Positions 16,074 to 38,373 of a DNA stretch of 39,721 nt are shown here, in pieces. The stretch covers positions 1-39,721 of the forward strand of contig JACPAJ010000013.1 of the NCBI GenBank assembly GCA_016180865.1, given 5' to 3'. The stretch comes from Deltaproteobacteria bacterium (GTDB lineage: Bacteria; UBA10199; GCA-002796325; 1-14-0-20-49-13). How positions within the stretch are numbered: position 1 is the stretch's first letter; each line of letters begins with the position of its first letter. Made by a program: the position numbers and the translations under genes. Below the pieces are notes generated by a model that did not search any database, was not told where the DNA came from, and was given only the letters and a program-made list of their open reading frames with translations.

Positions 16074-16078
16074 AGTTT

Positions 16079-17298: not shown

Positions 17299-17358
17299 AA
17301 TAATCTTTTGATGTCAAGGCACTTTTTTTTGACATAATTGGGCTTATATATTATTGTT

Positions 17359-17724: not shown

Positions 17725-17763
17725 TTTAAGTGCGAAGGCTGATAGTATTAAAGTAAACAAATA

Positions 17764-17829
17764 GCCCGCCACTAAACCATTGGCGGGCGTAAGAACGCCT
17801 AAACTCATCGGAATTCGCTAAGGCGTTCT
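17764..17829 (+). promoter_or_regulatory. two tandem hairpins in the leader of the major pilin-like gene
   Basis: GCCCGCCA(9-nt loop)TGGCGGGC at 17764-17788 and AGAACGCCT...AGGCGTTCT at 17792-17829, just upstream of GGAGG and the ATG at 17844. Confidence 0.65.
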
Positions 17830-17843
17830 AACGGAGGATAATT

Positions 17844-18266
17844 ATGCGAAGAGAAAAAGGTTTTACATTAATTGAACTTGTGCTTGTCATTGCCGTACTG
17901 GGGGTTTTGGCCGTGTCGGCGCTGCCCAACCTTTTCGATATTTCATTGACGAACGCCAGAAATAATGCGCGAGACGGCGTAGTCGGCGCAGTTCAGGCCG
18001 GTCTTTCACTTTACGGAGCCAACCAAATTTCTCAAGGGAACACCGAATCGTATCCGACATTGCTTGAAACAAGCGATTTGGCCGATGGAACGGCTTCCAG
18101 CCGCACGAATCCGCTTTTCAATAATATCCTGCAGGGCGGCGTAACGCGCGATTGGACAAAAAAGAACGATACCTGTTACACCTATACCGGAGGAGGAGCG
18201 ACGGATGATTATCAGTATACCGCCGGAACGACGGGCACGTTTGTATTTGCCAGCGGCGGATGCTAA
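17844..18266 (+). CDS. type IV pilin/pseudopilin (PilA/GspG/MshA-like)
   Basis: MRREKGFTLIELVLVIAVLGVLAVSALPNLF prepilin signature. Confidence 0.93.
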   Translation: MRREKGFTLIELVLVIAVLGVLAVSALPNLFDISLTNARNNARDGVVGAVQAGLSLYGANQISQGNTESYPTLLETSDLADGTASSRTNPLFNNILQGGVTRDWTKKNDTCYTYTGGGATDDYQYTAGTTGTFVFASGGC

Positions 18267-18277
18267 ACGAGGTGTTT

Positions 18278-18637
18278 ATGAAGAGATCCAAAATTGAAAT
18301 TTTTGCCGTTGTTGCGGTTGTAATCTTGGCAGTCGGAATTTTCGGCGTTAAATCATTTTTAATAAATAAGGCCGAAAAAGAGAATGCGCTCATGGCTGAA
18401 CTCAAGTCTTTGCGGACATCGGTTCAAATTTATCTTGTGCTGAATAAGAGCTATCCATCGGACCTGAAAAGCCTTGCCGGCCAAAAATTCGTTCTCGGCA
18501 ATAAAGAAGAATCCTACGTTAAGGGCATTAAACTTGATAGAGATGGATATCCGATAGATGTTTTCGGCCAAAAGTTTGATTATAACCCAAGAACGGGCTG
18601 GGTAAATTCTTCAGTAAAAAGATATTCAGAATGGTAA
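18278..18637 (+). CDS. pseudopilin-like membrane protein lacking a prepilin peptidase motif, similar to 17359-17724
   Basis: MKRSKIEIFAVVAVVILAVGIFGV TM; PIDVFGQKFDYNPRTGWVNSSVKRYSEW parallels the earlier protein. Confidence 0.6.
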   Translation: MKRSKIEIFAVVAVVILAVGIFGVKSFLINKAEKENALMAELKSLRTSVQIYLVLNKSYPSDLKSLAGQKFVLGNKEESYVKGIKLDRDGYPIDVFGQKFDYNPRTGWVNSSVKRYSEW

Positions 18638-19095
18638 AAGCTTTAAAGGGTTTTACCCTTATTGAAACGCTTTTAGTGATCGCTATTCTGGGAATTTTGT
18701 CTATAGCGCTCGTTACGCGCATATTTAATTATAAAAGATCCTATATTGAAGTAACGTCAAAGAAAGCCGCGAGCGATATTGAATATGCCAGAAGCCTTGC
18801 GATGATGAAACAGGGGACGACTTACGGGGTTTTTTTCGATGACGCCAATGATCGATATACGGTTTATGCAACAAGCACTGCAACTCCCGTTGCGGACCCC
18901 CAAACGAAGCAAAATCTTATTGAAACATTTTCAAGATGGCCCGGAGTTACGATTACCGGAGGCAATTTTACTGTTGAATTCAATCAATGGGGGTCTCCTA
19001 CGACAGGCGGCGGCGGAAGCGTGACGCTTACCGACGGCACAAACTCAAAGACGGTCACCATTACGGCAGGCACGGGGAAGGTGAGTGTGCAATAA
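18631..19095 (+). CDS. GspH/FimT-like pseudopilin
   Basis: KGFTLIETLLVIAILGILSIALV signature; ARSLAMMKQ; FNQWGSPTTGGGGSVTL C-terminus. Confidence 0.85.
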   Translation: MVKALKGFTLIETLLVIAILGILSIALVTRIFNYKRSYIEVTSKKAASDIEYARSLAMMKQGTTYGVFFDDANDRYTVYATSTATPVADPQTKQNLIETFSRWPGVTITGGNFTVEFNQWGSPTTGGGGSVTLTDGTNSKTVTITAGTGKVSVQ

Positions 19096-19529
19096 TGTTC
19101 AAGCAACAAGCAACTAGCAAGGGTGTGACGTTGATCGAGGCAGTTCTAATGATCGGCATTGTCGGGGCCGGTCTCATTGGAATAGCTTATACAATGTTCG
19201 GCGGCCCCAAATCCGCTCTGATAGCCGACCAGACAGTTGTTGCAGCCCATTTGGCCCGTGAAAAGATGGAACAGATCCTTGCGGACAGGGCAAATAACGG
19301 TTACGCAACGACAATTGCCACAAGTTATTCCGATGGCGCATTAACCGGCAATTACAGCATTTATACGAGAAACGTTACGATTACGGAAGTTGATTCAGAT
19401 GCTGACGGCGGCAGCGACGATTTTCTGGATGCTTTAGCCGGTTCAGGATACGCCAGAGTAACTACGACTGTAACATGGAACAGCGGAAACAACACCGTAA
19501 AAGAGGAGATGCTGATTGCAAATTATTAG
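19095..19529 (+). CDS. GspI/PilV/MshD-like pseudopilin
   Basis: MFKQQATSKGVTLIEAVLMIGIVGAGLIGIAY; AAHLAREKMEQILADRANNGY; ATG overlaps the upstream stop. Confidence 0.85.
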   Translation: MFKQQATSKGVTLIEAVLMIGIVGAGLIGIAYTMFGGPKSALIADQTVVAAHLAREKMEQILADRANNGYATTIATSYSDGALTGNYSIYTRNVTITEVDSDADGGSDDFLDALAGSGYARVTTTVTWNSGNNTVKEEMLIANY

Positions 19530-20034
19530 AGCCCATTTGCGGCGCGGCGGATTTACGCTTGTAGAACTTGTTTTGTCTATTGCTATCATTGCGATTCTTG
19601 CTGCAAGCGTCGGGCCGATTTTAACGACAAGTTTCAGAGGCTATGATCTTGTTGCAAAAAGACGGATAGCGCTGGCCCAAATCAGAATAGCGCTGGACAG
19701 AATGTGCGGTGAAATTGCTCTTATTCCGGACACAGCCAATATTGTCACATTTACCTCTACAAATTTCACATTTAATATTCCGAGCGAAAGCAATGTTGCA
19801 TATACAACAAGCGGAAGCACTCTTACACGTAGCGGCGTGAATCTGGCCGATAATGTAACTTCGCTCGCATTTACTTATCTTGATTCGGCCGGCAATTCAA
19901 CGGCGACAAAGGCAAATATAAAAAGGATAAAAGTTGAAGCGTCGGTTACAGCAGGTGCCGGCATGGGAACGTTAAATATAAGGGATCAAGTTTTTCCGCG
20001 GAGGTTTGCAAGCGCTTATGCAGGGTATCAGTAA
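19516..20034 (+). CDS. GspJ/PilW/MshO-like pseudopilin
   Basis: RRGGFTLVELVLSIAIIAILAASVGPIL; QIRIALDRMCGEI; TTG start likely. Confidence 0.8.
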   Translation: MQIIRAHLRRGGFTLVELVLSIAIIAILAASVGPILTTSFRGYDLVAKRRIALAQIRIALDRMCGEIALIPDTANIVTFTSTNFTFNIPSESNVAYTTSGSTLTRSGVNLADNVTSLAFTYLDSAGNSTATKANIKRIKVEASVTAGAGMGTLNIRDQVFPRRFASAYAGYQ

Positions 20035-22270
20035 ATATAAGGGCCAAAACGGAGTAACCGTCATCGCAGCGCTTGTTGCGGTATTTTTCATCGGCGCTGT
20101 CGGCGCGGGAATGGCATATTTTGTCGCGTCCAATCAGCAGACCCGGATACAGCAGGTGACGCGCGATCAGGCTCTTTATTCAAACATGGCCGGGATGGAA
20201 TTTGCGCTGCGCCAGATTATGGTCAGCGGCTCGCAGGCAACTTCTATCACGCGGAAATTTGTCGGCGAAACCATAACAATAACTCGCTCAAGCGGAGCGA
20301 TAAACGTTTCAACGGCAAAAAAGGACGCGTTTTCTTCTCATTCGATCACAGACCCGAATCCCCCGAATCTTGCAAATTGCCTTGTTATAAATACCGCTGC
20401 CGCCGCCGTAACCGACCAGAATCCTGGAGATAAGCACAGGCTTACCGGCATAACTCTAAGCCGCGATGCGAGCTGCACGGATGCGCTTACAATCAACTCC
20501 ATGAGCACAACTACATGGGCGCCCGATAACGGAGAGCTTTTAAATGCGATTGAAATTGCCGGTTCGCCGACCGAATTCAGCGGCCCGGCGGCGGGAAGCG
20601 GCGGAACGTTTGATTTCGGTTCGAATGATTATGCTATTAATGATGCCGCAACGCATAATCTCACATATGTCCAGTGGAATTCCGACATGAGCGGCCACAA
20701 TTTCCATCTTGTTTTTAACTTTACGATAAATGCCCAGACTTTCAGCAAATCGGCCGATGTCAATTTTTTGGCCGCGAATCAGGCCGGATGTTTCAGCTGG
20801 ACTACGACAAGCGCAAGGCTTTCATTTACTTCCAACGCGTGGCGCGATCTTATAAACACAAGCATTGCAAACTCCTGCGCGCAGCCGATAAGGCTTGATA
20901 AGATGACAGTTTCATGGACTCCGACAACGCCTTCGCGAAATCTTACGAATGTCCAGCTCAACGGCGGCTCGGAAGAGTTCACCGGTACGGCCGCAAGCGG
21001 AGTTCAAATTGAAGTCGATGATCTTATATCGGCATCTTCGTCTCAAACTGTCAATTATTTCAGATTTGACGGCGATATGCTGGGGCGGAATTATAGCGTT
21101 GTTTGGACATTTGCCGACGGAACGTCAACGACGCTATCTTTAAATCTTTTTAATGCAAATGAAAATAATTGTTTAACAATTAATACCGCCAATGTCGCGG
21201 TTTCCGGAAATGATGTTACCGGGCTTACCGTCCAAAATATCTGCAGCGCCGATATAGGAATGACTTCGGCAACGATGACGTGGAGCGGAGGGCCGGCAAA
21301 TTTCACGGCTATTTCAATCGACGATGTTGACGGCACAAATACCTATTCCGGAACTTTTGCAAGCGGCGCGGCGCTTGATTTTGCAACTGTAGATGCCGTT
21401 GACGGCAATCTGTATTATCCGGACGGAAGCGGAGTGAAAAATATAAATTCGCTTAGTTTCAGCTCCACTCCCGCCGGAACAACGTTTACTATTACGTTTA
21501 CAATGGCCGACGGTACGACTAAAGCCGCTACATTTACGCCTCAAACGCAGGCAAATTGTTTGAGCGTGAATATGCTCGGCAGTTCGCTTACAAACGGCAG
21601 CAAAGACCTTAGCGGGATAACAACTACCAATAATTGCAGCTTTCCAATCACATGGGCGCAGACAACGGTCACTACATCTTCGACGCGCAATTTGACGCAG
21701 ATAGTTGCCGATGGCGTAACTATTTTCAGCGGTAGCGCTGGCAGCGGCGTAACGGTCGACAACACGGATGTTGTTTATTCAGCATCGCAAACTGTTTCAA
21801 TCGACAGATTCAGGTTCAGCGGGAGCGTGGCCAATCGCGTCATAACGATAGATTTCATAATGGGAGATGGCTCGACTCAAACGGCTGAATTTTCAGAAAA
21901 ATTCTGCCTTGTGCCGAATACATCTGCAGCCACAATCGGCGGCACGGGAGGCGTCGATCTTTTGGGAATTACGATTAATAACCAATGCACCGCGCGTTCG
22001 ATCATTTGGATCACCACGGTTGCCAGTTGGACGCCGACGTCGCCTACAAGAAATTTAACGTCGATAGTCGTTGACGGTTCGTCTGTTTTCAGCGGTTCGA
22101 TGGCATCCGGCGGCACAACGAATAATTCCAACGTTACGCTGACAGCCGGTCAAACAAGGGCAATTACAAGATTTCGCTTCAGCGGAGATATGACCGGCAG
22201 AACGTTTACAATCACATTTAATATGCAGGACACATCGAGCGACACAACGCCGTCTTTCACGCCGCCGTAA
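20018..22270 (+). CDS. pilus-associated protein: MshP/PilX-like N-terminus fused to about five Cys-pair beta-sandwich-like repeats (MshQ-like position)
   Basis: NGVTVIAALVAVFFIGAVGAGMAYFVASNQQTR...ALYSNMAGMEFALRQIM followed by diverged repeats containing RNLTxIxxDGxxxFSGsxxSG and RFRFSGDMxGRTFTITFxMxDG. Confidence 0.8.
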   Translation: MQGISKYKGQNGVTVIAALVAVFFIGAVGAGMAYFVASNQQTRIQQVTRDQALYSNMAGMEFALRQIMVSGSQATSITRKFVGETITITRSSGAINVSTAKKDAFSSHSITDPNPPNLANCLVINTAAAAVTDQNPGDKHRLTGITLSRDASCTDALTINSMSTTTWAPDNGELLNAIEIAGSPTEFSGPAAGSGGTFDFGSNDYAINDAATHNLTYVQWNSDMSGHNFHLVFNFTINAQTFSKSADVNFLAANQAGCFSWTTTSARLSFTSNAWRDLINTSIANSCAQPIRLDKMTVSWTPTTPSRNLTNVQLNGGSEEFTGTAASGVQIEVDDLISASSSQTVNYFRFDGDMLGRNYSVVWTFADGTSTTLSLNLFNANENNCLTINTANVAVSGNDVTGLTVQNICSADIGMTSATMTWSGGPANFTAISIDDVDGTNTYSGTFASGAALDFATVDAVDGNLYYPDGSGVKNINSLSFSSTPAGTTFTITFTMADGTTKAATFTPQTQANCLSVNMLGSSLTNGSKDLSGITTTNNCSFPITWAQTTVTTSSTRNLTQIVADGVTIFSGSAGSGVTVDNTDVVYSASQTVSIDRFRFSGSVANRVITIDFIMGDGSTQTAEFSEKFCLVPNTSAATIGGTGGVDLLGITINNQCTARSIIWITTVASWTPTSPTRNLTSIVVDGSSVFSGSMASGGTTNNSNVTLTAGQTRAITRFRFSGDMTGRTFTITFNMQDTSSDTTPSFTPP

Positions 22271-22323
22271 GAGGCCGAAAGATAGTTGAATTTATTGAGC
22301 ATGAATGCTATCATTAACGACAT

Positions 22324-23868
22324 ATGAAACAACGAGTGAAACGCAAGCCGGCATCAGAAAAACTTAAAAAACCGATCGCCAAGGATAAAGATATAACCGT
22401 CCTTAATCAGACTTTATTGAATACCATCCCCTTTCCAATGGATATTGTGGACGATACAGGAACGATTCTTTACATGAGCGAATTAATGCAAAAAATGGCT
22501 GGTAAAAATGGCGCCGGCAAAAAATGCTGGCTGCTTTACAGGGATGATAAAGTCAGGTGTCCCGCATGCCCTCTTGAAACGGGAATAACCGTCGGAGAAA
22601 CGAAAACCATAGATGTGGGAAGCTGCTTTGGAGGAAAGCAGATGGAGGTTACTCACACCGGGATGATCTATAAAAGCAAAAAAGTGATTCTTGAAATTTT
22701 TTACGATATAACCGAAAGAAAAAAAGCCGATGAAGTTTTGAAAAATATCAGGGAAAAACTTGAAGAGAAAAATTTTGAATTAAAGCGGCTAAATGAAGTC
22801 AAATCCGAATTTGTGGCGACAGTTTCGCATGAGCTCAGAACTCCTTTGGCTTCGATCAAAGAAGCCATTTCGCTTATTTTGGACGGAGTGTCAGGGGAAA
22901 CTAACGAAAAACAGCGCAACTTTTTAAGCATCGCCAACAGAAATATCGACCGGCTTACCGGTTTAATCAACAATCTTCTCGATATTTCTAAAATCGAAAC
23001 CGGCAAGCTCAAGCTTTATAAAACGAATTTTTTGATGATGGATGTTATAAAAGAGGTTATCGATTCATTCAAACATCTTGCAGAGAATAAGAGAATTAAC
23101 CTGCGGCTGATCGAGAAAACCGACCTTCCGTCTGTATATGCGGACAAAGACAAGATAACGCAGATAATTATCAATCTCCTTTCAAATGCTTTAAAATTCA
23201 CGCCTGAAGGCGGTTTTGTGGAAGTTTCGACAGATTATACAAAATCGGATAAGGAATTCGTTGAAGTTGAAGTTAAAGATTCCGGAATGGGCATCGCCGA
23301 AGATGACATGCCAAAGCTTTTCCATAAATTCCAGCAGATCGACGGATCGATAACCCGCAAAATCGGCGGAACGGGCCTGGGGCTGGCCATCTCAAGGGAA
23401 ATTATCGAAATGCACGAAGGCAGAATCTGGGCGGCGTCTGAACTGGGCAAGGGGAGCCGCTTTGGGTTCATTCTGCCGGTTATTCCAATGGGGAAGATTA
23501 AAGTCGATAAAAAGAGGATTTTGATAATTGACGATGACCCCGATCTTTGCGAAACTCTAAAAACAAGGCTTGAAGCCAATGAATTTATCGTATTTACGGC
23601 TTTAAACGGGATGGACGGAATTGAACTGGCAAAGAAAAACAGGCCGAATCTTATTATTTTGGATTTAATGATGCCGGAAATGGATGGTTTTCAAGTTTGC
23701 CAGTCATTAATGAAAGACAGCCAGACATCTTCCATCCCCGTGGTGGTGTTGACTGTCCTTGATCAGGAGGAGGCAATACGAAAAGCCTTGTGTAAAGGCG
23801 CGGTAGGATATATGATTAAGCCATACGATTCCGAATCGCTGCTGGAAACAGTCAGGGAGTTTTTATGA
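22324..23868 (+). CDS. PAS hybrid histidine kinase with C-terminal receiver
   Basis: FVATVSHELRTPLASIKEAISLI, INLLSNALKFTPEGG, GGTGLGLAISREIIEMHEGRIW, REC ILIIDDDPDL...LIILDLMMPEMDG. Confidence 0.95.
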   Translation: MKQRVKRKPASEKLKKPIAKDKDITVLNQTLLNTIPFPMDIVDDTGTILYMSELMQKMAGKNGAGKKCWLLYRDDKVRCPACPLETGITVGETKTIDVGSCFGGKQMEVTHTGMIYKSKKVILEIFYDITERKKADEVLKNIREKLEEKNFELKRLNEVKSEFVATVSHELRTPLASIKEAISLILDGVSGETNEKQRNFLSIANRNIDRLTGLINNLLDISKIETGKLKLYKTNFLMMDVIKEVIDSFKHLAENKRINLRLIEKTDLPSVYADKDKITQIIINLLSNALKFTPEGGFVEVSTDYTKSDKEFVEVEVKDSGMGIAEDDMPKLFHKFQQIDGSITRKIGGTGLGLAISREIIEMHEGRIWAASELGKGSRFGFILPVIPMGKIKVDKKRILIIDDDPDLCETLKTRLEANEFIVFTALNGMDGIELAKKNRPNLIILDLMMPEMDGFQVCQSLMKDSQTSSIPVVVLTVLDQEEAIRKALCKGAVGYMIKPYDSESLLETVREFL

Positions 23869-24230
23869 CAAAAAAAATATTGATTGTGGATGACGAGAAG
23901 GATCTGGTTGAAACCCTTTCCTTCAGGCTGGAAGCCGCCGGTTATGCTATTATCACCGCTTTTGACGGGAAAGAAGGTCTGGAAAAAGCGCGTTCCGAAA
24001 AGCCGGATATCGTGCTTTTGGACATCATGATGCCCAAGATGGATGGCTATCAGGTTTGCAGGATGTTGAAATTCGATGACGAATATAAGCATATGCCGAT
24101 AATCATGCTTACCGCGCGGGGGCAGGAGCAGGATAAAAAGACGGGAGAAAACGTCGGAGCGGACGATTACGTCACAAAACCTTTTGACAGCGGGGACCTT
24201 CTCACGCGCATTAAAAAGCTTTTAAAATGA
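23865..24230 (+). CDS. single-domain response regulator
   Basis: ILIVDDEKDLV...DIVLLDIMMPKMDGYQ...MLTARGQ...VTKPFD. Confidence 0.95.
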   Translation: MTKKILIVDDEKDLVETLSFRLEAAGYAIITAFDGKEGLEKARSEKPDIVLLDIMMPKMDGYQVCRMLKFDDEYKHMPIIMLTARGQEQDKKTGENVGADDYVTKPFDSGDLLTRIKKLLK

Positions 24231-24613
24231 AGTACGAAATTTTAATAGCGGACGATGATCGCGACTTTGTCACGGTTCTGAAGGAGCGTCTTGAATCAAG
24301 CGGCTTTATAACAGATTGCGCCTACGAAGGCGTCAGGACTATCGAGCTGGCCCATAAGAAAAAACCCGATTTGATTTTGCTGGACTGGAAAATGCCCGCA
24401 GGCGGCGCATCTACGGTTTTACAGTATTTGAAGGAGAAGCCGGAAACGAAAAACATCCCCGTTATTGTTATTACCGGAGTCGCCGATAATTTTTTGGAGT
24501 CTAAAGCGGCGTCATTGGGGGCCAAATATTTTATACGAAAACCGTACGATCCTCATCTGCTCATCGACACAATAAACGAAATCCTGGCTTTAAGAACCGA
24601 AAAATCAAAATAG
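24227..24613 (+). CDS. single-domain response regulator
   Basis: ILIADDDRDFV...DLILLDWKMPAGG...VITGV...IRKPYD; ATGA overlap with the previous gene. Confidence 0.93.
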   Translation: MKYEILIADDDRDFVTVLKERLESSGFITDCAYEGVRTIELAHKKKPDLILLDWKMPAGGASTVLQYLKEKPETKNIPVIVITGVADNFLESKAASLGAKYFIRKPYDPHLLIDTINEILALRTEKSK

Positions 24614-24659
24614 ATATTTTTCTTTAACATTTCATAAAGTTATGCTACTTTCATGACTT

Positions 24660-25535
24660 ATGTATCTTGAGTATTTTAATTTTACTGATGAGCCGTTTAA
24701 AATAACGCCGGATTCAAAATATCTTTATCTGTCCCGCCAGCACGAGGAGGTTTTGCAAGCGCTCCTTTACGGCATTACACAGCGCAAAGGCTTTATGGCT
24801 GTAATCGGAGACATCGGAACCGGAAAGACAACCATAAGCCGCGCGCTTTTAAACAGGCTTGATAAATCGATCGATACATCCATTATTTTAAATCCGATGC
24901 TTTCCGTTCAGGAGCTGCTGGAGGCCATTAACGACGATTTTGGAAATGCGGCAGCTACGAGAGATACGGTTAAGGGGCAGATAGATGCGCTGAATGAATT
25001 CATGCTGCGCCGCCTACGCTTCAATAAAAATGCGATTGTGATGATAGATGAAGCGCAGCATTTGAGCGTTGAATCCATGGAGATGCTGAGGCTGCTGTCA
25101 AATCTGGAGACCGAAGATAAAAAGCTGATGCAGATAATTTTTCTGGGGCAGAAAGAGCTTGAAACAAAATTGAAATCGCCGGAACTCCGCCAGCTCGACC
25201 AGAGAATAGGCATTCGCTATTTTCTGGGGCCGCTGAATTACACCGAGACGTGCAATTATATTGTTCACAGGATAACAATGGCCGGAGGCGGGGGCGGCAG
25301 CATTCAGCTTGAAGAGCGGGGGTTGAGGAAAATTTTTGAATATTCAAAGGGAGTGCCGCGCAGGGTCAATATGATTTGCGACAGAAGCCTGCTGGAAGCT
25401 TTTGCACAGAGAAGCAAGCTTGTTACCAGCGGGATTGTAAAAGCCGCTATTCGCGACATTGAAGGCCTCTCAAACCCGAGCGGAGTCGCATTTTCCGGCA
25501 GAAAAAAAGTTTGGGAATTCTGGAAGTGGTTTTAA
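24660..25535 (+). CDS. ExeA/MshM-like AAA ATPase
   Basis: YFNFTDEPFKITPDSKYLYLSRQHEEVLQALLYGI, GDIGTGKTTISRALL, AIVMIDEAQHLSVESMEMLRLLSNLET. Confidence 0.93.
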   Translation: MYLEYFNFTDEPFKITPDSKYLYLSRQHEEVLQALLYGITQRKGFMAVIGDIGTGKTTISRALLNRLDKSIDTSIILNPMLSVQELLEAINDDFGNAAATRDTVKGQIDALNEFMLRRLRFNKNAIVMIDEAQHLSVESMEMLRLLSNLETEDKKLMQIIFLGQKELETKLKSPELRQLDQRIGIRYFLGPLNYTETCNYIVHRITMAGGGGGSIQLEERGLRKIFEYSKGVPRRVNMICDRSLLEAFAQRSKLVTSGIVKAAIRDIEGLSNPSGVAFSGRKKVWEFWKWF

Positions 25536-25550
25536 AAATCAGGGGGATAA

Positions 25551-26336
25551 ATGTCCGTAATTTTAAAAGCTCTCAAAAGCCAGGAGAGAGAATCAAATAA
25601 TATCAGCAAGTCGCCGTTAATTATTCCAGAAGGCGAAGGTTTTTTTAAAGGCAGGCAGTCGATGGTTAAAAAAGATCCTTACGTCTCCAAAAAAAGGATT
25701 TATGTTTTAAGCGTTCTTTTTGCCGCTGCGGTTATTTTTGCAGTTGCTCTTCAGTGGGTGAAAAACAGGCCGGCCGAGCCTGAGTCTGCAAAACAACCGG
25801 CTGTTGCTCATGCGGTTGAAAATTCAAATCAAACCGCACTGGCTGTTCAAGCGGAAACAAGCGAGGCTGTTCCGGCAGACATAGTTGAACGGGCAAATGC
25901 AGCTTTTGCCGGCGGAGATTATGAAACCGCAGTGAAATTGTTTAAGGAAGCAATCGCGAAAGATCAAAACAATGCAATGCTTCATAATAATTTAGGGCTT
26001 ATATTTGTAAAAAAAGAGCTCTATTCCAGCGCGGAAGATGAGTATAAAAAAGCGCTTGAATCTGACGATAAGTGCGCGGAATGTTTTAATAATTTTGGAT
26101 ATCTGAAATCGATATTGGGAGAATCGTTTGAGGCGAGGAAATATTTTGAAAAGGCATCGGTGTTATTAGCATCGTACGCAGATCCGTATTTTAACCTGGC
26201 GGTCTTATCCGAAAAAGAAGGGGACATAGGCAATGCCGTTAAATATTACAGGCAGTTCATCGAGCTCTATCCGAATAAAAGCGATACGCTCTATTCTAAA
26301 GTCAACAAACGGGTAATTGAACTTGCCGGGAAATAG
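25551..26336 (+). CDS. TPR membrane protein (MshN-like position)
   Basis: MSVILKALKSQERE start, one TM helix, TPR repeats (NAMLHNNLGLIFVKKELYSSAEDEYKKALE). Confidence 0.8.
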   Translation: MSVILKALKSQERESNNISKSPLIIPEGEGFFKGRQSMVKKDPYVSKKRIYVLSVLFAAAVIFAVALQWVKNRPAEPESAKQPAVAHAVENSNQTALAVQAETSEAVPADIVERANAAFAGGDYETAVKLFKEAIAKDQNNAMLHNNLGLIFVKKELYSSAEDEYKKALESDDKCAECFNNFGYLKSILGESFEARKYFEKASVLLASYADPYFNLAVLSEKEGDIGNAVKYYRQFIELYPNKSDTLYSKVNKRVIELAGK

Positions 26337-26338
26337 TT

Positions 26339-27346
26339 ATGGCTAAGATTTCATTAGGGGTCGACATAGGCTCTGAAGATATAAAAGTAGTATGCCTGGA
26401 AAAAAATGAAGAAAGTTATAAGCTGAATTCTTACGGCCATTTCAGGTTCGGCGGCGACGAAGAGGCTTTAAAAAGATTTGTGCAGGAAGCAAAGCTTCCG
26501 AAGGGCGATGTAAGAATAAATATTGAAGACAGCTCTTTAAAAATAAGAAGGCTTGATCTGCCGACCATGACCGAAGAGGAATTTAATGAGGCCGTTCGCT
26601 GGGGGATGAAGGATATTGTTGAAGGGGATATTAACGATTTTATCTTTCGCTGTTCAAAAATAGATCCGACGGATCTGAGCCTTGAAAATAAAATTCCGAT
26701 GCTGGTTTTTGCAATCAAGGCCGATACGGTGTCTGGCAGGCGCAGTTTTGCTAAGCGCATAGGCTTTAAAATCCCAAGCATTATAGAACCCAATGCAGGT
26801 GCTCTGGCATGTCTTTTTGATGCGCTGAAGGGAAAAGAAAGAGACTCTTCAAAAGCGGTTGTTGATTTAGGGAGGGTCTTTTCGCCTTTTATCGTTATCG
26901 GGAAAAAAGGGCTGGTTTTTTCCAGGCCGATGAACGGCTGCAGCGAAATTAATTTTATCGGCCAGCTTGCGCGGGACTTAGGCATAGGCTCAAAAGAGGC
27001 GGAAGATTTAAAGCAAAAATTTTTTGGAGGAGGAAAAATAAGCGGAGAAATTGAGACAAGGCTTAAAAATTCCGTGACGCAGTTTTATTCAAAAATGGCC
27101 GTTGAAATTCAGCGGTCTATTGACGGGTATAATCTTGTTTTCGGCAGGCAGAAAGTCGATGAAATTTTTCTTTGCGGAAACGGCGCGTACAGCAAAGGGC
27201 TGATTGGTTATCTTAATCAGACTCTTGGCGTTAAAACGGGCATATTGGATCCGTTCGAATTTGCCGATACGCGAGAATTCAGCCCTGGGCCGTTTGACGG
27301 CAAACGGGCTCTTTTTGCGGTTGCTTGCGGGCTTGCGGTTGATTGA
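26339..27346 (+). CDS. PilM/MshI-like actin-fold pilus assembly protein
   Basis: SLGVDIGSEDIKVVCLEK; KAVVDLGRVFSPFIVIGKKG; EIQRSIDGYNLVFGRQKVDEIFLCGNGA. Confidence 0.88.
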   Translation: MAKISLGVDIGSEDIKVVCLEKNEESYKLNSYGHFRFGGDEEALKRFVQEAKLPKGDVRINIEDSSLKIRRLDLPTMTEEEFNEAVRWGMKDIVEGDINDFIFRCSKIDPTDLSLENKIPMLVFAIKADTVSGRRSFAKRIGFKIPSIIEPNAGALACLFDALKGKERDSSKAVVDLGRVFSPFIVIGKKGLVFSRPMNGCSEINFIGQLARDLGIGSKEAEDLKQKFFGGGKISGEIETRLKNSVTQFYSKMAVEIQRSIDGYNLVFGRQKVDEIFLCGNGAYSKGLIGYLNQTLGVKTGILDPFEFADTREFSPGPFDGKRALFAVACGLAVD

Positions 27347-27361
27347 TTCGGCGCAAATTTT

Positions 27362-27898
27362 ATGCATATTAACTTTGAAACAAAGAGAAATGTGTTTGAA
27401 ATGATTCTGTTGAAGGGGCTTGAAGTTAATAGGCTGCTGATGGTTTTTTTCGTTATCGGTGTAATTATGCTGATGGTTTTATTCGGCCTGGTTCAAAAAT
27501 TCCGCCTCGATTATCTTGGGGCAAAAAGAATAAAAATGGAACATCAGGTGATAGAATTGCGCAAAGGAACGCCCCTTGAAAATCTTTCGATAGCAAGCAG
27601 CGCAGGCAAGGATCAGATATTTATAAATTATGAAGAAAAAATCATCTGGTCGGATATTCTTAAAGAACTTTCGGTTTACTGCCCTGAAAATGTGCAAGTT
27701 ACGCAGTTTAAAAGTACTAGTTCCGGCCGGACAGTTAACATAGGCGGCGACGCGCCGGATCAGGCGAGCGTTGCCGATTTTGTAAAAGCCCTTCAGGGAA
27801 GCGGAACTTTTAAGGACGTTAAACTTTTGTCCTCAACATCCGTTCAGGCTGAGGGCGGGAGCACGAGGATCGTTTACAGCATTGCAAGCACAATATGA
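27362..27898 (+). CDS. PilN-like pilus assembly protein
   Basis: MHINFETKRNVFEMILLKGLEVNRLLMVFFVIGVIML; WSDILKELSVYCPENVQVTQFKS. Confidence 0.75.
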   Translation: MHINFETKRNVFEMILLKGLEVNRLLMVFFVIGVIMLMVLFGLVQKFRLDYLGAKRIKMEHQVIELRKGTPLENLSIASSAGKDQIFINYEEKIIWSDILKELSVYCPENVQVTQFKSTSSGRTVNIGGDAPDQASVADFVKALQGSGTFKDVKLLSSTSVQAEGGSTRIVYSIASTI

Positions 27899-28473
27899 AC
27901 ATTCATCTATCAAGCGTTGACTGGCAGCAGCGCCCCAACAGGCGCGAAAAAATCATATTTGCCTGTTCCGTTCTCATATTTTTTGCGGTTTTTTTAAAAT
28001 CATGCTGGTATCCGAGCAACAAAGCCATTGGGGTTGCAAAATCGGAATTGAAAGGCATTATCGAAGAAAAAATAGCCTTGGAAAGAAACGCCGGGTTGTT
28101 GCAGGACACAGATGCGAAAGGCAAGCTCTGGACGGGAACCCCCGATGAAAGGGTCGCCTATATTAAAATGGCCCAGAGAGTAAGCGAATCGCCGAATGTT
28201 GTTCTGATGAAAGAATTTTCCAACCCTGCGCTTTTGCGGGATGTGAAACTGTCAAACATAGATTTTCCGGACCAAAAAAATGAAAGCGGAATGATAAAGC
28301 AGCAGTGGAAAATCAATGTCAACGGAGCGTTTGTATCGGTAGGTAAATATATTGAGAGATTAGAAGGCTTGCCAATGCTTTTATTTATTGATAATATAAC
28401 GTTCAATTCGGCAAACGATCCGTTTGGGCGCGTTAATGCCGAGGTTGAAGGAACCGTTTATGGCTGGAAATAA
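27895..28473 (+). CDS. PilO/MshJ/GspM-like pilus assembly protein
   Basis: RREKIIFACSVLIFFAVFLKSCWYPSNKAI; position after PilN; ATGA overlap. Confidence 0.7.
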   Translation: MNIHLSSVDWQQRPNRREKIIFACSVLIFFAVFLKSCWYPSNKAIGVAKSELKGIIEEKIALERNAGLLQDTDAKGKLWTGTPDERVAYIKMAQRVSESPNVVLMKEFSNPALLRDVKLSNIDFPDQKNESGMIKQQWKINVNGAFVSVGKYIERLEGLPMLLFIDNITFNSANDPFGRVNAEVEGTVYGWK

Positions 28474-28831
28474 TTTATTCAGATTATCGTTTGCGGTGCT
28501 TGTCCTTGCTTTTGCGCTTTCAGCTTCTGCAGAGCAGGGGAAAAAGGCGCTTTCAGGCCTGAATATAGAGGAATTTGAGCAGAAAAAGGAGAGGCCGACC
28601 GACTGGAGCAAGAATCCTTTTGTCATTCCAGCGGCGGATGTGGCGGTAAGCGAATTAAAACTTTCGGGAATCGTTTACAGTGAAAAGGAATCCGCAGCGA
28701 TTGTAAGCGATAATATCGTTAAAATCGGCGATAAAATAGGATCGAACGAAGTTGTTGCAATAGAAAAGATGAGAGTTGTTATAAGAAACGAAAACGGCCT
28801 TTTTGGAATTGCCCTTAGCGGAGGGAAATGA
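28460..28831 (+). CDS. PilP/GspC/MshK-like protein
   Basis: Signal-like N-terminus; WSKNPFVIPAADVAVSELKLSGIVYSEKESAAIVSDNIVKIGDKIGSNEVVAIEKMRVVI. Confidence 0.75.
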   Translation: MAGNNLFRLSFAVLVLAFALSASAEQGKKALSGLNIEEFEQKKERPTDWSKNPFVIPAADVAVSELKLSGIVYSEKESAAIVSDNIVKIGDKIGSNEVVAIEKMRVVIRNENGLFGIALSGGK

Positions 28832-30198
28832 AGAAATTTATAATATTTTGCCTGCTGATGCTGTCGTGCGACCTCTGGTCTTATGAAAGGCTTTTCAGCG
28901 TCGAGTTTCGCGATGCCGATATCAAGAGCGTTCTAAGGCTCTTGGCAAAGATGGACGACCGGAATATCGTTGTTCCCGACAAAATTGAAGGAAAAGTAAC
29001 CGCCAGTTTTGAAAACATAGGATTATATGATGCGCTTGACGCTGTTTTAAAAACGCACGGCTATGGCGTGATTGAAGAAAATAATATCCTGCAGGTCCTT
29101 TCAAAGGACGAAATGCAGTCTTTAGGCGAAGATCTTCAGCAGGCGACATTCATTCTGCAGTATGCAAAAGCTTCGGACATCCTTCCGCAAATACAGGCGT
29201 TAATCACATCGCGCGGTTCCGCAGTTGCGGATGAAAGGACAAATACGATTTTCGTGAGAGATTCAAATGCCGCCGTTAACAACATAAGAGGGCTTGTCGC
29301 AAATATCGATAAAAAAGACAGCCAGGTGCTGATCGAAGCTAAAATAATCGAAGCGAGCCTGGATTTTATAAGAAGCCTTGGCGTGCAGTGGGGCGTCACG
29401 AAATCAGGCGGAAAAATCCAGACAGCGGGAGTTGAGGCCGTGGGAACCGCCGATAGCGGAAGAACTCTGATGCTGAATTCTCCGGCCGTTGGATTGAATT
29501 CCGGCGCGCCTTTGGGCGGTGTTGGAATGATTTTGGGGAGTTTCCGCGGGACGCTTACGGATGTGCAGCTGACAACCGCCGAACAGAAAGGGGATGTCAG
29601 CATTCTTTCAAGGCCGTCCGTTACGACAATCAATAATCATTCCGCATCTATCAGAAGCGGAGCCAAATTCTACGTCAAAACAAGCGGCAACGTAACGATC
29701 GGCGGAACAACAGGCGCTGCGGTTTCGACAGGCACAAATCTGCAGCAAATCGTTACGGGGATAGAATTGAAGGTGACGCCGCAGATTTCAATGGACGAAT
29801 TTATCAAGCTTGATATCGCAGCAACCGAATCCGAGGCGGATTTTACAAAAGCAATTGAGGGAATACCGGCAGTCCTTGATAATACAGCCACGACAACCGT
29901 TATGCTTAAAAACGGCGAAACAACAATTATCGGCGGACTTTTCCGCGTGCGCGATGCGAAAACCATTAAAGGGATTCCGGGACTCATGAAAATTCCGATT
30001 TTAGGAAATCTATTCAAGAGCAAGTCAAAAACTAAAGCCAGGAGCGAGCTGCTGATATTTATCACTCCTAAGATTATAGAATCTACTCTTTCAAGCCTTC
30101 CTCATTATGAGGAGCCGGACAGCATGTATTATACAGAGCCCATTTTAAATCCCGAACGAAAAGAGAAGAAGAAACGCAAATTCCGATTCAAGTATTAA
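28828..30198 (+). CDS. secretin (PilQ/GspD/MshL-like)
   Basis: FRDADIKSVLRLLAKMDDRNIVVPDKIEGKVT, secretin domain VLIEAKIIEASLDFIRSLGVQWG..., GGLFRVRDAKTIKGIPGLMKIPILGNLFKSKSKTKARSELLIFITPKII. Confidence 0.96.
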   Translation: MKKFIIFCLLMLSCDLWSYERLFSVEFRDADIKSVLRLLAKMDDRNIVVPDKIEGKVTASFENIGLYDALDAVLKTHGYGVIEENNILQVLSKDEMQSLGEDLQQATFILQYAKASDILPQIQALITSRGSAVADERTNTIFVRDSNAAVNNIRGLVANIDKKDSQVLIEAKIIEASLDFIRSLGVQWGVTKSGGKIQTAGVEAVGTADSGRTLMLNSPAVGLNSGAPLGGVGMILGSFRGTLTDVQLTTAEQKGDVSILSRPSVTTINNHSASIRSGAKFYVKTSGNVTIGGTTGAAVSTGTNLQQIVTGIELKVTPQISMDEFIKLDIAATESEADFTKAIEGIPAVLDNTATTTVMLKNGETTIIGGLFRVRDAKTIKGIPGLMKIPILGNLFKSKSKTKARSELLIFITPKIIESTLSSLPHYEEPDSMYYTEPILNPERKEKKKRKFRFKY

Positions 30199-33648: not shown

Positions 33649-33801
33649 ATGGATAAGAAGAAAAAAGATGAACTGGCCAAAACGTGCTGCGGGCCTAAAG
33701 TAACGACGGAAAAGTCGTCTAAAAAGCAAAAGTGGGAAAAACCGTCGCTTGAAAATGTGTCGACCCGTGTTATGGCACAGCCGTATATCAGATTTACATG
33801 A
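33649..33801 (+). CDS. 50-aa candidate RiPP precursor peptide (absent from supplied ORF track)
   Basis: Strong RBS AAGGAGGAGGGG; MDKKKKDELAKTCCGPKVTTEKSSKKQKWEKPSLENVSTRVMAQPYIRFT; followed by PqqD-like and radical SAM genes. Confidence 0.8.
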   Translation: MDKKKKDELAKTCCGPKVTTEKSSKKQKWEKPSLENVSTRVMAQPYIRFT

Positions 33802-33827
33802 GTCGCAATTAGTTGATTTTATTAAAT

Positions 33828-33860
33828 AAAAGGAGCAGCCAATTTAAGCTGCTCCTTTTT
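33828..33860 (+). terminator. intrinsic terminator/attenuator between precursor and PqqD-like gene
   Basis: AAAAGGAGCAGC-CAATTTAA-GCTGCTCCTTTTT: 12-bp perfect stem followed by T tract. Confidence 0.88.
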
Positions 33861-33882
33861 AATTATCTACCGGAGGTTATAT

Positions 33883-34131
33883 ATGAAATTTGCAAATTCA
33901 GTAAAGGTGCGCAGTGAAAAATTTGGATCGGTTGTTTTTGAAACCCTTCGGGAAAGAGTTTTTGTCTCAAATACGACCGGAGCGGATGTTTTAAAACTTA
34001 TAGAAGACGGCAAAACAAAAGAAGAGATAATTGCCGATTTGTCCGCTAAATACGATGGCAACGAAAGCACAATAAAGAACGACATTGCCGAATATTTTGC
34101 ATGTCTTGAACAAAACAATCTATTAGCTTAG
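33883..34131 (+). CDS. PqqD-like RiPP recognition element protein
   Basis: 82 aa; FGSVVFETLRERVFVSNTTGADVLKLIEDGKTKEEIIADLSAKYD...NDIAEYFACLEQNNLLA. Confidence 0.85.
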   Translation: MKFANSVKVRSEKFGSVVFETLRERVFVSNTTGADVLKLIEDGKTKEEIIADLSAKYDGNESTIKNDIAEYFACLEQNNLLA

Positions 34132-34148
34132 AAAAGGAGACTAATAAA

Positions 34149-35141
34149 ATGGTTATCGAAAACGATCTTCGCATAATGGCGAAGCAGTACGTTCCGGAAG
34201 GCGGGAGCTTTGCCGATTTTGAGGCGCCTTTATTTATGGCGTGGCAGCTGAATCAGGAATGCAACATCGCATGCCTGCACTGCTGCGAAGAGGCGGGGCA
34301 TTTTATGCCGGACACTCTTAATTCAAACGAGGTTGCAAATTTTTGCGAGCAGATTACCACTATGAAAATTCCTTATGTCGCAATCTCCGGCGGAGAGCCG
34401 ATGCTGCACAAGGATTTTTATAAAATATGCGAATATTTCAGAAAGCATAATATAAGCCTGAAAGTTGAGACCAATGGGCTTCTTATCACAAAAGAAAAAG
34501 CCAAATGGTTTGGAAGCCTTGGATTCAGATCTGTTCAGGTGAGCGTTGACGGCGCAACCGCCGAGGCGCACGAAAAATTGAGAATTAAGGGCAAATGGCA
34601 GCCGACGATCGATGCGTGCAAATATCTTGTGGAAGCCGGAGTAACGACGGAAATAGTTTTTGTCCCCACAAAATTCAATATTCATGAAACCGGCCAGTTG
34701 ATCGATATGGCCCATAAAATGGGCATTTACGGCGTTTATACAGGCAAAACCATGAGAATTGGCCGTGCTGCCGAAAACTGGGACGCGCTTTGCCCGACGG
34801 ACGCTCAGTACGAAGAATTTTTTAAAGTGCTGAAGGAGAAACAGGCGTCTTATGAAGGCAGAATGAAGGTCTATTATTATCCTTATGATGTTATTGAGGA
34901 ACTGAAATACAGGCTGGAATATCCTTCGGCGAGTCTCCTTGTCATTCCCAACGGAAAAGTAAAGCTTATCGGGCCTATGCCGTTCTTGTGCGGAGATCTT
35001 CGGAAGCACACTTTGGCCGAAATCTGGGAGAGATATAAAAAATCGTGGAAGGACCCTAAAGTTACGGCGTTTGCCAAGAAAGTTATCGCGGATCCAACAA
35101 TGGTAGCGAAGGCCAATGACTGGGTTGAGCTATATAACTAA
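34149..35141 (+). CDS. radical SAM enzyme with degenerate SPASM-like C-terminus
   Basis: CNIACLHC (CX3CX2C), AISGGEPMLHKDFY, VQVSVDGATAEAHEKLR; C-terminal FLCGDLRKHTLAEIWERY retains only one Cys. Confidence 0.93.
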   Translation: MVIENDLRIMAKQYVPEGGSFADFEAPLFMAWQLNQECNIACLHCCEEAGHFMPDTLNSNEVANFCEQITTMKIPYVAISGGEPMLHKDFYKICEYFRKHNISLKVETNGLLITKEKAKWFGSLGFRSVQVSVDGATAEAHEKLRIKGKWQPTIDACKYLVEAGVTTEIVFVPTKFNIHETGQLIDMAHKMGIYGVYTGKTMRIGRAAENWDALCPTDAQYEEFFKVLKEKQASYEGRMKVYYYPYDVIEELKYRLEYPSASLLVIPNGKVKLIGPMPFLCGDLRKHTLAEIWERYKKSWKDPKVTAFAKKVIADPTMVAKANDWVELYN

Positions 35142-36000
35142 ATTACTCACGTTTATCCGGTACCGCTTTCTCCTTTTTGCAGGGGTTTTGCCGTATTTTC
35201 TCGGCGCGTCTATTGCCTATCAAAAGCTCGAGCTCTTTAATTTGAAGTTTTTTTTGCTTGGCTTAAGCGGCCTTGTTTTTGTGCTGATAGGAGTGGAAGC
35301 GTTCAATGAATATTTTGACTGGATCCTCGGCACCGACAGAATTTTTCAGATCGATCAAAAGCCTATCGGAAAGAAAAAATTTTATATCGGCATCGCGGCT
35401 TTTTTTGCAGCTCTCTTGTTTGCTGTTTATCTGACTTTAATAATCGGAAAGGGGATTGCGATATTTGCGCTTATTGGTTTTGCGGCGGCGGCATCTTATC
35501 TTGGACCGCCGGTCAAATTTGCGTATCGCGGTCTTGGGGAGGCGGTTATTGCTCTTGCTTATGGGCCGGCAATGGTTTTGGGAAGCTATTATTTGCAGAC
35601 TAAAACGGTGGATACGGAGCCGCTTTTAATTTCCATCCTTCCGGCGATATTATTATATTCAATAGCAATCATTAATGAAGTGCCCGATTTTTTGCAGGAC
35701 AGCCTTGTCGGCAAGCAAAATATCTGCGTAAGGCTGGGCAGGATCGGAGCGGTAAGGCTTTATGCCGGATTGCTGGGCCTATTTTTTGCAGCTGCTCTAG
35801 CTTTAATTGCTTTGCGTAAAATTCCGTTAACTGTGGGGGTGACTTTTTTTCTTATTCCTCTCGGTTTTTATAACTATCGCAAAGCGTGTAAATATTTTGA
35901 GGCCCCAGCCGATTTTTATCCGGTAATCCGCGGAACGCTTTTATTTTATATCATCGCAATGGTTATCTGCATTTTAAGCATTATTTTCCGGCCATTCTGA
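35116..36000 (+). CDS. UbiA/MenA-family membrane prenyltransferase
   Basis: NEYFDWILGTDR and DFLQDSLVGKQNICVRLG Asp-rich motifs, multiple TM helices; overlaps the radical SAM stop. Confidence 0.88.
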   Translation: MTGLSYITKLLTFIRYRFLLFAGVLPYFLGASIAYQKLELFNLKFFLLGLSGLVFVLIGVEAFNEYFDWILGTDRIFQIDQKPIGKKKFYIGIAAFFAALLFAVYLTLIIGKGIAIFALIGFAAAASYLGPPVKFAYRGLGEAVIALAYGPAMVLGSYYLQTKTVDTEPLLISILPAILLYSIAIINEVPDFLQDSLVGKQNICVRLGRIGAVRLYAGLLGLFFAAALALIALRKIPLTVGVTFFLIPLGFYNYRKACKYFEAPADFYPVIRGTLLFYIIAMVICILSIIFRPF

Positions 36001-36237: not shown

Positions 36238-36825
36238 ATGATTGATTTGAATAATGTTGTAACAAACTTGAGAAAAAATGGTTTCATTGCCGAGGTTTTT
36301 TCTGACCGGGCTTCTTTAGTGACCGCGATTCTCGAGAAGTTGGCCCATTCAAAAAGTATCAGCAGGGGAGGATCTGTCACATTAGATCAACTGGGTATTC
36401 CCGATGCCATTCGTGCCAAGGGATTGCCGTTCAGGGGAAATGCAACCTATGAGGATCGTCTCGCCGCTTTATCAGCGGATCATTTTTTGACAGGAACCAA
36501 TGCCATTACCGAAGAGGGATATTTGGTCAATGTGGATGGAACCGGAAGCAGGATTGCGGCGATTAGCTTTGGCCCCAAGCAGGTTTTCGTGGTCTGCGGC
36601 ACCAATAAAATCGTGAAAAACGTCAAGGCCGGGTTTGAACGGATAAGGGCCATTGCGGCACCCAAAACGAGCGCTTTGATAAAGAGAAACACCCCATGTC
36701 TATCTTTCGGACGGTGTATGAACTCAAACAGCCCGGACTGCATTTGCCGAAAACGGCATGTGACGCTTAGGGGTGAAGAAGGGAGAGTGAGCGTCTTTTT
36801 AATCAATGAACCGCTAGGGTTCTAA
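36238..36825 (+). CDS. LUD domain protein (LutC/YkgG-like)
   Basis: LRKNGFIAEVFSDRASLVTAIL, SRGGSVTLDQLGI, VDGTGSRIAAISFGPKQVFVVCGTNKIV, C-terminal TPCLSFGRCMNSNSPDCICRKRHVT. Confidence 0.85.
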   Translation: MIDLNNVVTNLRKNGFIAEVFSDRASLVTAILEKLAHSKSISRGGSVTLDQLGIPDAIRAKGLPFRGNATYEDRLAALSADHFLTGTNAITEEGYLVNVDGTGSRIAAISFGPKQVFVVCGTNKIVKNVKAGFERIRAIAAPKTSALIKRNTPCLSFGRCMNSNSPDCICRKRHVTLRGEEGRVSVFLINEPLGF

Positions 36826-36839
36826 AGGAGTGTCTCGAG

Positions 36840-37076
36840 GTGGAAAAGATAGAGGTCCTATTTAAGAATGAATCTTCCCGCCAATGCTCGGTGTATGTGG
36901 GGTCAGAAATAAGCGATCAGATTCCCAAAATTGCGGCGAACCTGAAAGCCAGCAAGGCTTTTGTGCTGTGTGATTCTAAGGTGCAAATGGTTGGACGAAT
37001 CATCGCCAAGAAGATACGTACGGTCTGCAATGTTGATCTCTATGTCATGGAAGCCACATCATATGTTAATACTTGA
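36840..37076 (+). pseudogene. N-terminal fragment of a 3-dehydroquinate synthase-like (AroB superfamily) gene
   Basis: GTG start; VYVGSEISDQIPKIAANLKASKAFVLCDSKVQMVGRIIAKKI...VMEATSYVNT* matches only the N-terminal fold. Confidence 0.55.
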
Positions 37077-37114
37077 ATGCTATAATCTGACCCCCAATTT
37101 ACACAAATAATACT

Positions 37115-37143
37115 TTGACAATTACAAAGTAATAATTTATAAT
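37115..37143 (+). promoter_or_regulatory. perfect consensus sigma70 promoter
   Basis: TTGACA-N17-TATAAT, 6 nt before ATG 37150. Confidence 0.85.
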
Positions 37144-37149
37144 AGCCAT

Positions 37150-38373
37150 ATGTATAAAAAAAGGCTTATAGAACAAGCTGTTATAAAGGCATCAAAGACC
37201 TTTCCAGTGATTATGTTGACGGGTAGCCGCCAGGCGGGAAAGACCACACTTTTTCGAACTCTTGAACCTAATAGACGATTCATTACCTTAGATGATCTTC
37301 AATTAAGGCGTTATGCAAAAGAGGATCCAAAGGGTTTTATAAACGAGTTTAAACCTCCGGTATTCATTGACGAGTTTCAATATGCTCCGGACATTTTACC
37401 GTATATAAAAATTGCCGTTGATGAAAAGAGGACAAAAACGCAAAGCGCCGATGGTTATTTTTGGCTTTCGGGTTCGCAAAATTTCAAGATGATGGAGCAT
37501 GTTCAGGAGTCGCTTGCCGGACGCGTTGCAATTCTGCAACTATTAGGATTTTGCAGGCCGGAAATCGACGACAGTCGCATGGAATTCGAAAAGCCTCCCT
37601 ATTTCCTTGCTCCAATCGAATCGCGCTTCGAAACGAGCCGGAATGTGAACGACATCTTTGAATTTATAGTTCGCGGAGATAAACCGGAAATATGGACCAA
37701 ACCGGAAATAGACAGAAATGTTTTCTATTCATCCTACATACAAACTTATCTTGAAAGGGACGTTCGCAGTCAAATCGGTATCAGAGATATCGGCCTATTT
37801 GAAAAATTCATGCGCATGCTAGCTGCGCGCAGCGCCGACCTTTTGAATCTATCTGCGCTTGCAAGTGATGTCGGGGTCACTCAACCGACGGTTGCGCAGT
37901 GGCTTAATGTGTTGGAAAGAAGTTATCAGATATTTATTCTAAAGCCTTATTACCGCGGCCACGCCAAAAGATGCGTTAAGACGCCAAAGGCATATTTCTT
38001 GGATACGGGGCTATTGTCTTATTTTCTTAATATCAACGATGTCAAAACAGCCGTTTCACATCATTTTAACGGAAAACTTTTTGAAACATGGGTTGTCTCC
38101 GAAACCATAAAAAGTCTTTGGCATAGGGGCCTCGATGCGAATCTCTTTTTTTGGAGAACAAGGGATGGCGATGAAATTGACCTCTTATATGAAGGCACAG
38201 AGCTTTTGCCCTCTGAGATCAAGCTTGCAAATTCACCTTCAATAGGCGTCATATCTGCCGCAAAAAAAATAAAGGGGATTAATGTGGGAGCAAAAAGGAT
38301 AATCTGTACCACAGAAAAAAATGCATCGCTTGCAAGTGATACTACGTTGATTTCAGCATGGAACTTGTTTTAA
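37150..38373 (+). CDS. AAA ATPase with DUF4143-type C-terminus
   Basis: MLTGSRQAGKTTLFR, FITLDDLQLRRYAKEDPKGFI, FIDEFQYAPDILPYIK, C-terminal LFETWVVSETIKSLWHRGLDANLFFWRTRDGDEIDLLYE. Confidence 0.92.
   Translation: MYKKRLIEQAVIKASKTFPVIMLTGSRQAGKTTLFRTLEPNRRFITLDDLQLRRYAKEDPKGFINEFKPPVFIDEFQYAPDILPYIKIAVDEKRTKTQSADGYFWLSGSQNFKMMEHVQESLAGRVAILQLLGFCRPEIDDSRMEFEKPPYFLAPIESRFETSRNVNDIFEFIVRGDKPEIWTKPEIDRNVFYSSYIQTYLERDVRSQIGIRDIGLFEKFMRMLAARSADLLNLSALASDVGVTQPTVAQWLNVLERSYQIFILKPYYRGHAKRCVKTPKAYFLDTGLLSYFLNINDVKTAVSHHFNGKLFETWVVSETIKSLWHRGLDANLFFWRTRDGDEIDLLYEGTELLPSEIKLANSPSIGVISAAKKIKGINVGAKRIICTTEKNASLASDTTLISAWNLF

Follow-up and report, generated by a model that had tools for sequence, protein, structure and literature searches.

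What would a cell make from a short ribosomal peptide whose gene sits beside those for a PqqD-type RRE, a radical SAM (rSAM) enzyme and a membrane prenyltransferase of the UbiA superfamily? These four genes lie together in the window, i.e., the entire 39,721-nt contig of a Deltaproteobacteria bacterium that we analyzed. We observe a cassette with an invariant precursor core and a constant UbiA, frequently linked to a gene for a polyprenyl-diphosphate (polyprenyl-PP) synthase, in genomes most of which lack quinone markers. It is present in about 57 genomes, from Omnitrophota, Planctomycetota and Elusimicrobiota as well as from the window's own phylum. We suggest, with a probability of roughly 0.5, that the cassette encodes a RiPP-type cofactor pathway yielding one conserved, prenylated, peptide-derived redox lipid that resembles a lipoquinone.

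In the window, all reading frames of the original prediction were found, i.e., four plus-strand genes in the order precursor-PqqD-rSAM-UbiA, and their Pfam assignments are PqqD, Radical_SAM and UbiA (Table 1). The start of the UbiA frame overlaps the rSAM frame by 26 nt, and the precursor gene is preceded by a strong Shine-Dalgarno sequence, AAGGAGG. Thus, as in RiPP systems with a discrete RRE and an rSAM maturase, a short precursor ORF with a conserved core is genetically linked to both proteins.

Table 1. Features of the cassette in the window
Feature	Position	Strand	Remarks
Precursor peptide gene	33649..33801	+	50 aa; relatives share the C-terminal core
Predicted RRE recognition motif W-x-K-P-x-L-x-x-V (WEKPSLENV) in the leader	33733..33759	+	W, P and V kept in 28/28 precursors
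Invariant core MAQPYIRFT and stop	33772..33801	+	Same in 28/28 distinct precursors
Hairpin between precursor and PqqD, stem about 11-12 bp, U-rich 3' arm	33828..33860	+	
PqqD-family RRE	33883..34131	+	82 aa; PF05402, E 3.9e-12
rSAM enzyme, CX3CX2C	34149..35141	+	330 aa; PF04055, E 4.9e-22
UbiA-superfamily polyprenyltransferase, MenA/UBIAD1-like	35116..36000	+	PF01040, E 2.8e-18

The cassette occurs in two architectures. Scanning 85,462 species genomes for the rSAM enzyme gave 18 loci, hosted by MAGs of Omnitrophota, Planctomycetota, Elusimicrobia and Nitrospinota and by one genome binned as Ktedonobacter. Together with the window and a further locus in G021, a relative of the window's genome from the same family, these loci form a single-rSAM set of 20. 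An rSAM profile search added 37 Elusimicrobiota genomes, nearly all of which have two or three tandem homologues. All 29 three-homologue loci of Elusimicrobiota that were examined have the order polyprenyl-PP synthase-PqqD-rSAM1-UbiA-rSAM2-precursor-rSAM3; in those that were read, PqqD is extended at its N terminus and the precursor (e.g., MNDQKTVTDAKAEPKLAWETPSLEEVSERVMAQPYIRFT) is encoded in the gap of roughly 150 nt between rSAM2 and rSAM3. The same precursor in this gap rules out that the three-rSAM loci are an unrelated system. In the rSAM tree, each rSAM group is monophyletic; the window's rSAM pairs with the Omnitrophota-like sequence L007, whereas that of G021, from the same family, clusters with sequences of Elusimicrobia MAGs. 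The cassette is rare, with 5 carriers among 285 Omnitrophota genomes and 2 among 392 Planctomycetota genomes, and this sparse distribution suggests horizontal transfer. No peptidase, hydroxylase or methyltransferase gene recurs as a neighbor in the loci examined and no candidate lies within the cassette; an M29-type aminopeptidase considered after UbiA in L007 was discarded for lack of a Pfam match.

Several lines of evidence support the short ORF as a precursor. The window's peptide, MDKKKKDELAKTCCGPKVTTEKSSKKQKWEKPSLENVSTRVMAQPYIRFT, has no match at a trusted score in Pfam or NCBIfam. Its Tyr, which had been described as the C-terminal residue, is in fact the fifth residue from the end (−5), in the tail PYIRFT. 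A relaxed motif search of all DNA retrieved gave 28 distinct precursors from several phyla, all beside the same cassette genes and all ending in MAQPYIRFT-stop. At the DNA level, the nine core codons have 25 distinct versions, with a mean difference of 5 of 27 bases. A core shared by 28 precursors in spite of this synonymous variation rules out a chance short ORF. A precursor with this ending is present in nearly every single-rSAM locus that extends far enough upstream. Thus, the conserved short ORF expected near homologous rSAM genes does exist, and its tail is invariant. Comparison of the sequences indicates that the core is under strong purifying selection, unlike those of diversifying antimicrobial RiPPs. 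Because the core never varies, it points to a cofactor and argues against a bacteriocin or a pheromone.

The leader preceding the core is variable except for W-x-[KRT]-P-x-[LMI]-x-[DEN]-V. Recognition sequences of the W/Y/LxxP type have been reported in a 2025 RRE survey for a number of RRE groups, PqqD among them (PMC12710340), and the conserved leader motif is thus probably where the RRE docks. Downstream of the precursor gene, the hairpin in Table 1 has a z-score of −2.97, with an equally good fold in 0 of 200 shuffles; a strong hairpin is found at the same position in L006 and is absent from L007, L014, L016 and L018. We rejected a terminator between precursor and PqqD since this fold, although strong, is not flagged by a consensus terminator scan and is not general. 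The hairpin is possibly an attenuator that favors precursor expression.

The two maturation proteins resemble those of known pathways, yet all scores lie below the curated cut-offs, and membership in the PQQ, mycofactocin, lasso or GeoRSP systems was rejected on this basis. For the RRE, the nearest NCBIfam models are lasso PqqD, which is the best, and PQQ PqqD, with 28.4 bits against the PQQ PqqD equivalog model (cut-off 46). For the rSAM enzyme, the top NCBIfam model is MftC (137.6 bits; cut-off 265), and the PqqE model scores 86 bits (cut-off 381). Its predicted structure (pLDDT 83) has SkfB and PqqE as the nearest solved folds. The CX3CX2C motif is written CNIACLHC in the window, the only invariant cysteines are C38, C42, C45, C46 and C281, and the C-terminal region is degenerate. 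There is no SPASM match in Pfam, no auxiliary-cluster cysteines are present, and a single conserved Cys, C281, follows CX3CX2C. Because C281 is the sole further invariant Cys, the enzyme lacks SPASM clusters of the PqqE/MftC type, and the PqqE/MftC-like SPASM enzyme implied by the original prediction has to be given up.

UBIAD1 and MenA enzymes prenylate quinone head groups. Both Asp-rich motifs of the UbiA superfamily are intact in the window's UbiA (N64/D68 and N187/D191/D195), and the nearest solved relative of the cassette UbiA, by sequence and by fold, is UBIAD1. Against the TIGR00751 menA model it scores 64 bits (cut-off 102.15). In a tree, the cassette UbiAs, whichever the architecture, fall into a single clade that is distinct from the other MenA-like UbiAs of their hosts. 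The UbiA gene directly follows the rSAM gene in 20 of 20 single-rSAM loci, the window included, is also present in 29 of 29 examined three-rSAM loci, and is never separated from an rSAM gene in these 49 loci. The proposal that UbiA is physically and evolutionarily linked to an RRE and rSAM peptide-maturation set is thereby supported. A polyprenyl-PP synthase gene lies directly after UbiA in four Omnitrophota loci (L008, L009, L010 and L013) and directly before PqqD in the 29 three-rSAM loci. As two gene orders share the same core and the same added prenyl genes, we consider prenylation to be part of the pathway. Five genomes (G051, G055, G056, G059 and G062) yielded no UbiA-family protein other than that of the cassette.

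We compared 19 cassette genomes with 14 same-phylum genomes without a cassette. Marker genes of both menaquinone pathways were absent from 18 of the 19, whereas 10 of the 14 controls had a marker (MqnC in nine and MenD in the tenth, G002; Fisher p = 1e-4), in a comparison of mostly incomplete MAGs with few controls. MenD was above the cut-off in 0 of 19 cassette genomes, and MqnC was strong in one (G060, which has both MqnC and the cassette) vs. nine controls. UbiG had no convincing match in the cassette genomes; it exceeded the cut-off once, in G054, by summed partial matches in one 642-aa frame. By contrast, complex I or an RNF/NQR-like complex is encoded in 17 of 19 cassette genomes: complex I in seven, including the window's, and an NqrF-containing complex in 10 of the 12 others. 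These 12 belong to Omnitrophota and Planctomycetota; among Omnitrophota that lack the cassette, NqrF was found in 2 of the 14 genomes counted as controls. G021 has cytochrome bd in addition to complex I. In the three-rSAM genome G1022, complex I is encoded twice, and neither MqnC, MenD nor an MqnP-type UbiA was found in the 59% that was covered (2.24 of 3.80 Mb), which makes this partial result weak evidence. In L008, L011, L012 and L016, an NQR-like operon lies immediately upstream of the precursor gene. NQR proper was discarded as a name for this complex as RnfC takes the place of NqrA, and we refer to it as RNF/NQR-like.

Omnitrophota have been recorded that encode a UbiA, supposedly a 4-hydroxybenzoate prenyltransferase, while a chorismate lyase is missing (PMC10066038), and further quinones probably await discovery (PMC13386864). 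The respiratory complexes in cassette genomes without quinone pathways match both puzzles. The polyprenyl-PP synthase in the cluster, the NQR-like operon beside four loci and the missing menaquinone markers give independent support to the lipoquinone idea. Against it, the RNF/NQR hybrid may pass its electrons to something other than a quinone, and complex I is frequent in the window's phylum whether or not a genome has the cassette. It also counts against the idea that G060 has MqnC beside the cassette, that G000 and G021 encode an orphan MenA, that G022 has complex I and cytochrome bd but neither the cassette nor MqnC or MenD, and that the cassette offers no candidate for peptidase, hydroxylase or methyltransferase steps. 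On this genomic context, we judge the odds that the product acts as a lipoquinone-like electron carrier to be about even. The full joint reading, i.e., that a respiratory lipoquinone with a head group cut from MAQPYIRFT by RRE-guided rSAM chemistry and prenylated by UbiA would replace menaquinone or ubiquinone in some members of Omnitrophota, Planctomycetota and Elusimicrobiota and of the phylum to which the window belongs, is tentative and falls somewhat short of an even chance.

We suggest the following scheme for the synthesis of such a redox lipid. The PqqD-type RRE would bind the W-x-K-P-x-L leader and present the MAQPYIRFT tail to the rSAM enzyme. The latter would alter the core, probably either at the Tyr, which is its sole phenol, or by linking core side chains; leader binding as well as the site and type of the radical chemistry are what we infer. 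UbiA would then polyprenylate the aromatic product in the membrane, and peptidases encoded elsewhere may trim the prenylated product. That the mature product derives from the core and carries a prenyl group is likely, with prenylation deduced from the gene linkage. Anchored in the membrane, this redox lipid would act as the electron carrier where neither menaquinone nor ubiquinone is made, and would serve complex I or an RNF/NQR-like dehydrogenase.

The linkage of precursor, RRE, rSAM enzyme, UbiA and polyprenyl-PP synthase fits equally well a conserved prenylated peptide or peptide-derived lipid that is not a respiratory quinone but, e.g., serves one particular enzyme as a cofactor in the membrane, binds a metal or heme as a lipid-anchored ligand, or acts as a structural lipid, and the quinone role is based on genomic context only. 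This would, however, make the absence of menaquinone markers, the quinone-reducing dehydrogenases and the NQR-like neighbor a coincidence, and an enzyme cofactor like PQQ or mycofactocin should be accompanied by a dedicated dehydrogenase gene, of which none is found repeatedly next to the cassette. We regard a non-quinone lipid as unlikely but as a serious contender. A soluble cofactor resembling PQQ or mycofactocin, with UbiA serving separately, e.g., by prenylating scavenged DHNA to menaquinone, is distinctly improbable: UbiA accompanies the rSAM gene in all 49 examined loci, even overlapping it in the window, and belongs to a cassette-specific clade, and there is no MqnC or MenD pathway to feed it. 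This is so although the order of RRE and rSAM genes resembles PQQ and mycofactocin and the cassette UbiA is MenA-like. It is also in favor of the soluble cofactor that G000 and G021, both without MenD or MqnC, encode orphan MenA proteins above the TIGR00751 cut-off (L049:3402-4307 and L052:2722-3636, respectively), which possibly make menaquinone from scavenged DHNA.

In ComX/ComQ and in the cyanobactin ABBA systems, a ribosomal peptide receives an isoprenoid. A secreted prenylated RiPP, either a ComX-type pheromone or an antimicrobial, would explain why a short precursor shares one operon with maturase and prenylation enzymes, and would suit a patchy distribution that probably reflects horizontal spread. 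A core identical in 28 of 28 precursors across phyla is the opposite of the diversification of pheromones and bacteriocins, and genes for transport, immunity or a receptor do not recur among the loci; we therefore give this explanation very little credence. The cassette peptide is likewise probably prenylated; however, the prenyltransferase is an integral-membrane UbiA rather than a ComQ- or ABBA-type enzyme, and the core is fixed.

Similar part-likenesses extend to the other known systems. The cassette shares with mycofactocin (MftA/B/C) a short precursor, an RRE (MftB) and an rSAM enzyme in A-B-C order as well as a conserved core, which in mycofactocin gives a single redox cofactor. Unlike in mycofactocin, the precursor has no C-terminal Val-Tyr, the rSAM enzyme lacks SPASM cysteines, and UbiA and polyprenyl-PP synthase are found instead of MftD/E/F/G, none of which was seen in the loci. 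The peptide precursor, the PqqD-type RRE, the resemblance of the rSAM enzyme to the PqqE model and the Tyr in the conserved core recall PQQ (PqqA/D/E), but there is neither a Glu-x3-Tyr core nor SPASM clusters, and PqqB/C/F were not seen in the loci. The fold and both Asp-rich motifs of the cassette UbiA are those of MenA/UBIAD1, whereas the head-group genes for MenD and MqnC are absent and the protein, below the menA cut-off, falls in a separate clade. Finally, the W-x-x-P-x-L leader motif, of a kind described for many RREs (PMC12710340), is shared with lasso and other discrete RREs that have a (W/Y)xxP leader; in contrast to lasso systems, the cassette has no lasso protease or cyclase, and the core has no lasso ring/loop pattern.

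We found no published work that unites PqqD, radical SAM and UbiA, and no mention of PYIRFT, in the literature (without subscription papers and preprints). We know of no RiPP with an intramembrane UbiA prenyltransferase. At the least, the cassette would represent a RiPP class not described before, whose product does not vary, as a variant of the RRE/radical-SAM pathways to peptide-derived cofactors. If the quinone role were proven, it would be categorically new, i.e., a new route to, and a new kind of, membrane electron carrier. A quinone product would answer which electron carrier is used by lineages that have respiratory complexes yet none of the known quinone pathways (PMC13386864), and would bear on the Omnitrophota UbiA that has no source of head group (PMC10066038). 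Some genomes would then have been wrongly classed as non-respiring or ubiquinone producing. With four small genes, the question of the missing quinone becomes directly testable.

Some further observations concern individual genomes. In the RNF/NQR hybrid operon (L008:2-5478; also L011, L012 and L016), an RnfC-type protein with two 4Fe-4S motifs is encoded with NqrB/D/E-like proteins and NqrF; this arrangement is possibly an evolutionary intermediate between RNF and NQR. The Omnitrophota genome G047 has two cassettes, one beside the RNF/NQR operon (L008) and one beside a sulfhydrogenase-like beta/gamma operon (L010), and both are followed by a polyprenyl-PP synthase gene. G022, from the window's family, encodes complex I and cytochrome bd while the cassette, MqnC and MenD are all absent, reflecting either an incomplete assembly or yet another quinone source. 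Elsewhere in the window, positions 14400-30198 hold a gene run like those for type IV pili or type II secretion (ATPase, inner-membrane protein, pseudopilins and secretin). Downstream of the cassette, a LUD-domain ORF, an apparently truncated 3-dehydroquinate synthase ORF and an ATPase-like ORF (36238-38373) make the region look disrupted. Short, dispersed repeat-like peptides lie in frame inside coding genes at window positions 4855-7611, in L050:9874-10374 and in L052, e.g., CHPRENGDP...HEIPAFAGMT, VIASAAKQSP...GTPRNDI and SPQPSPSRGEGDGGG; one of the affected genes apparently encodes a complex I subunit of the window's genome.
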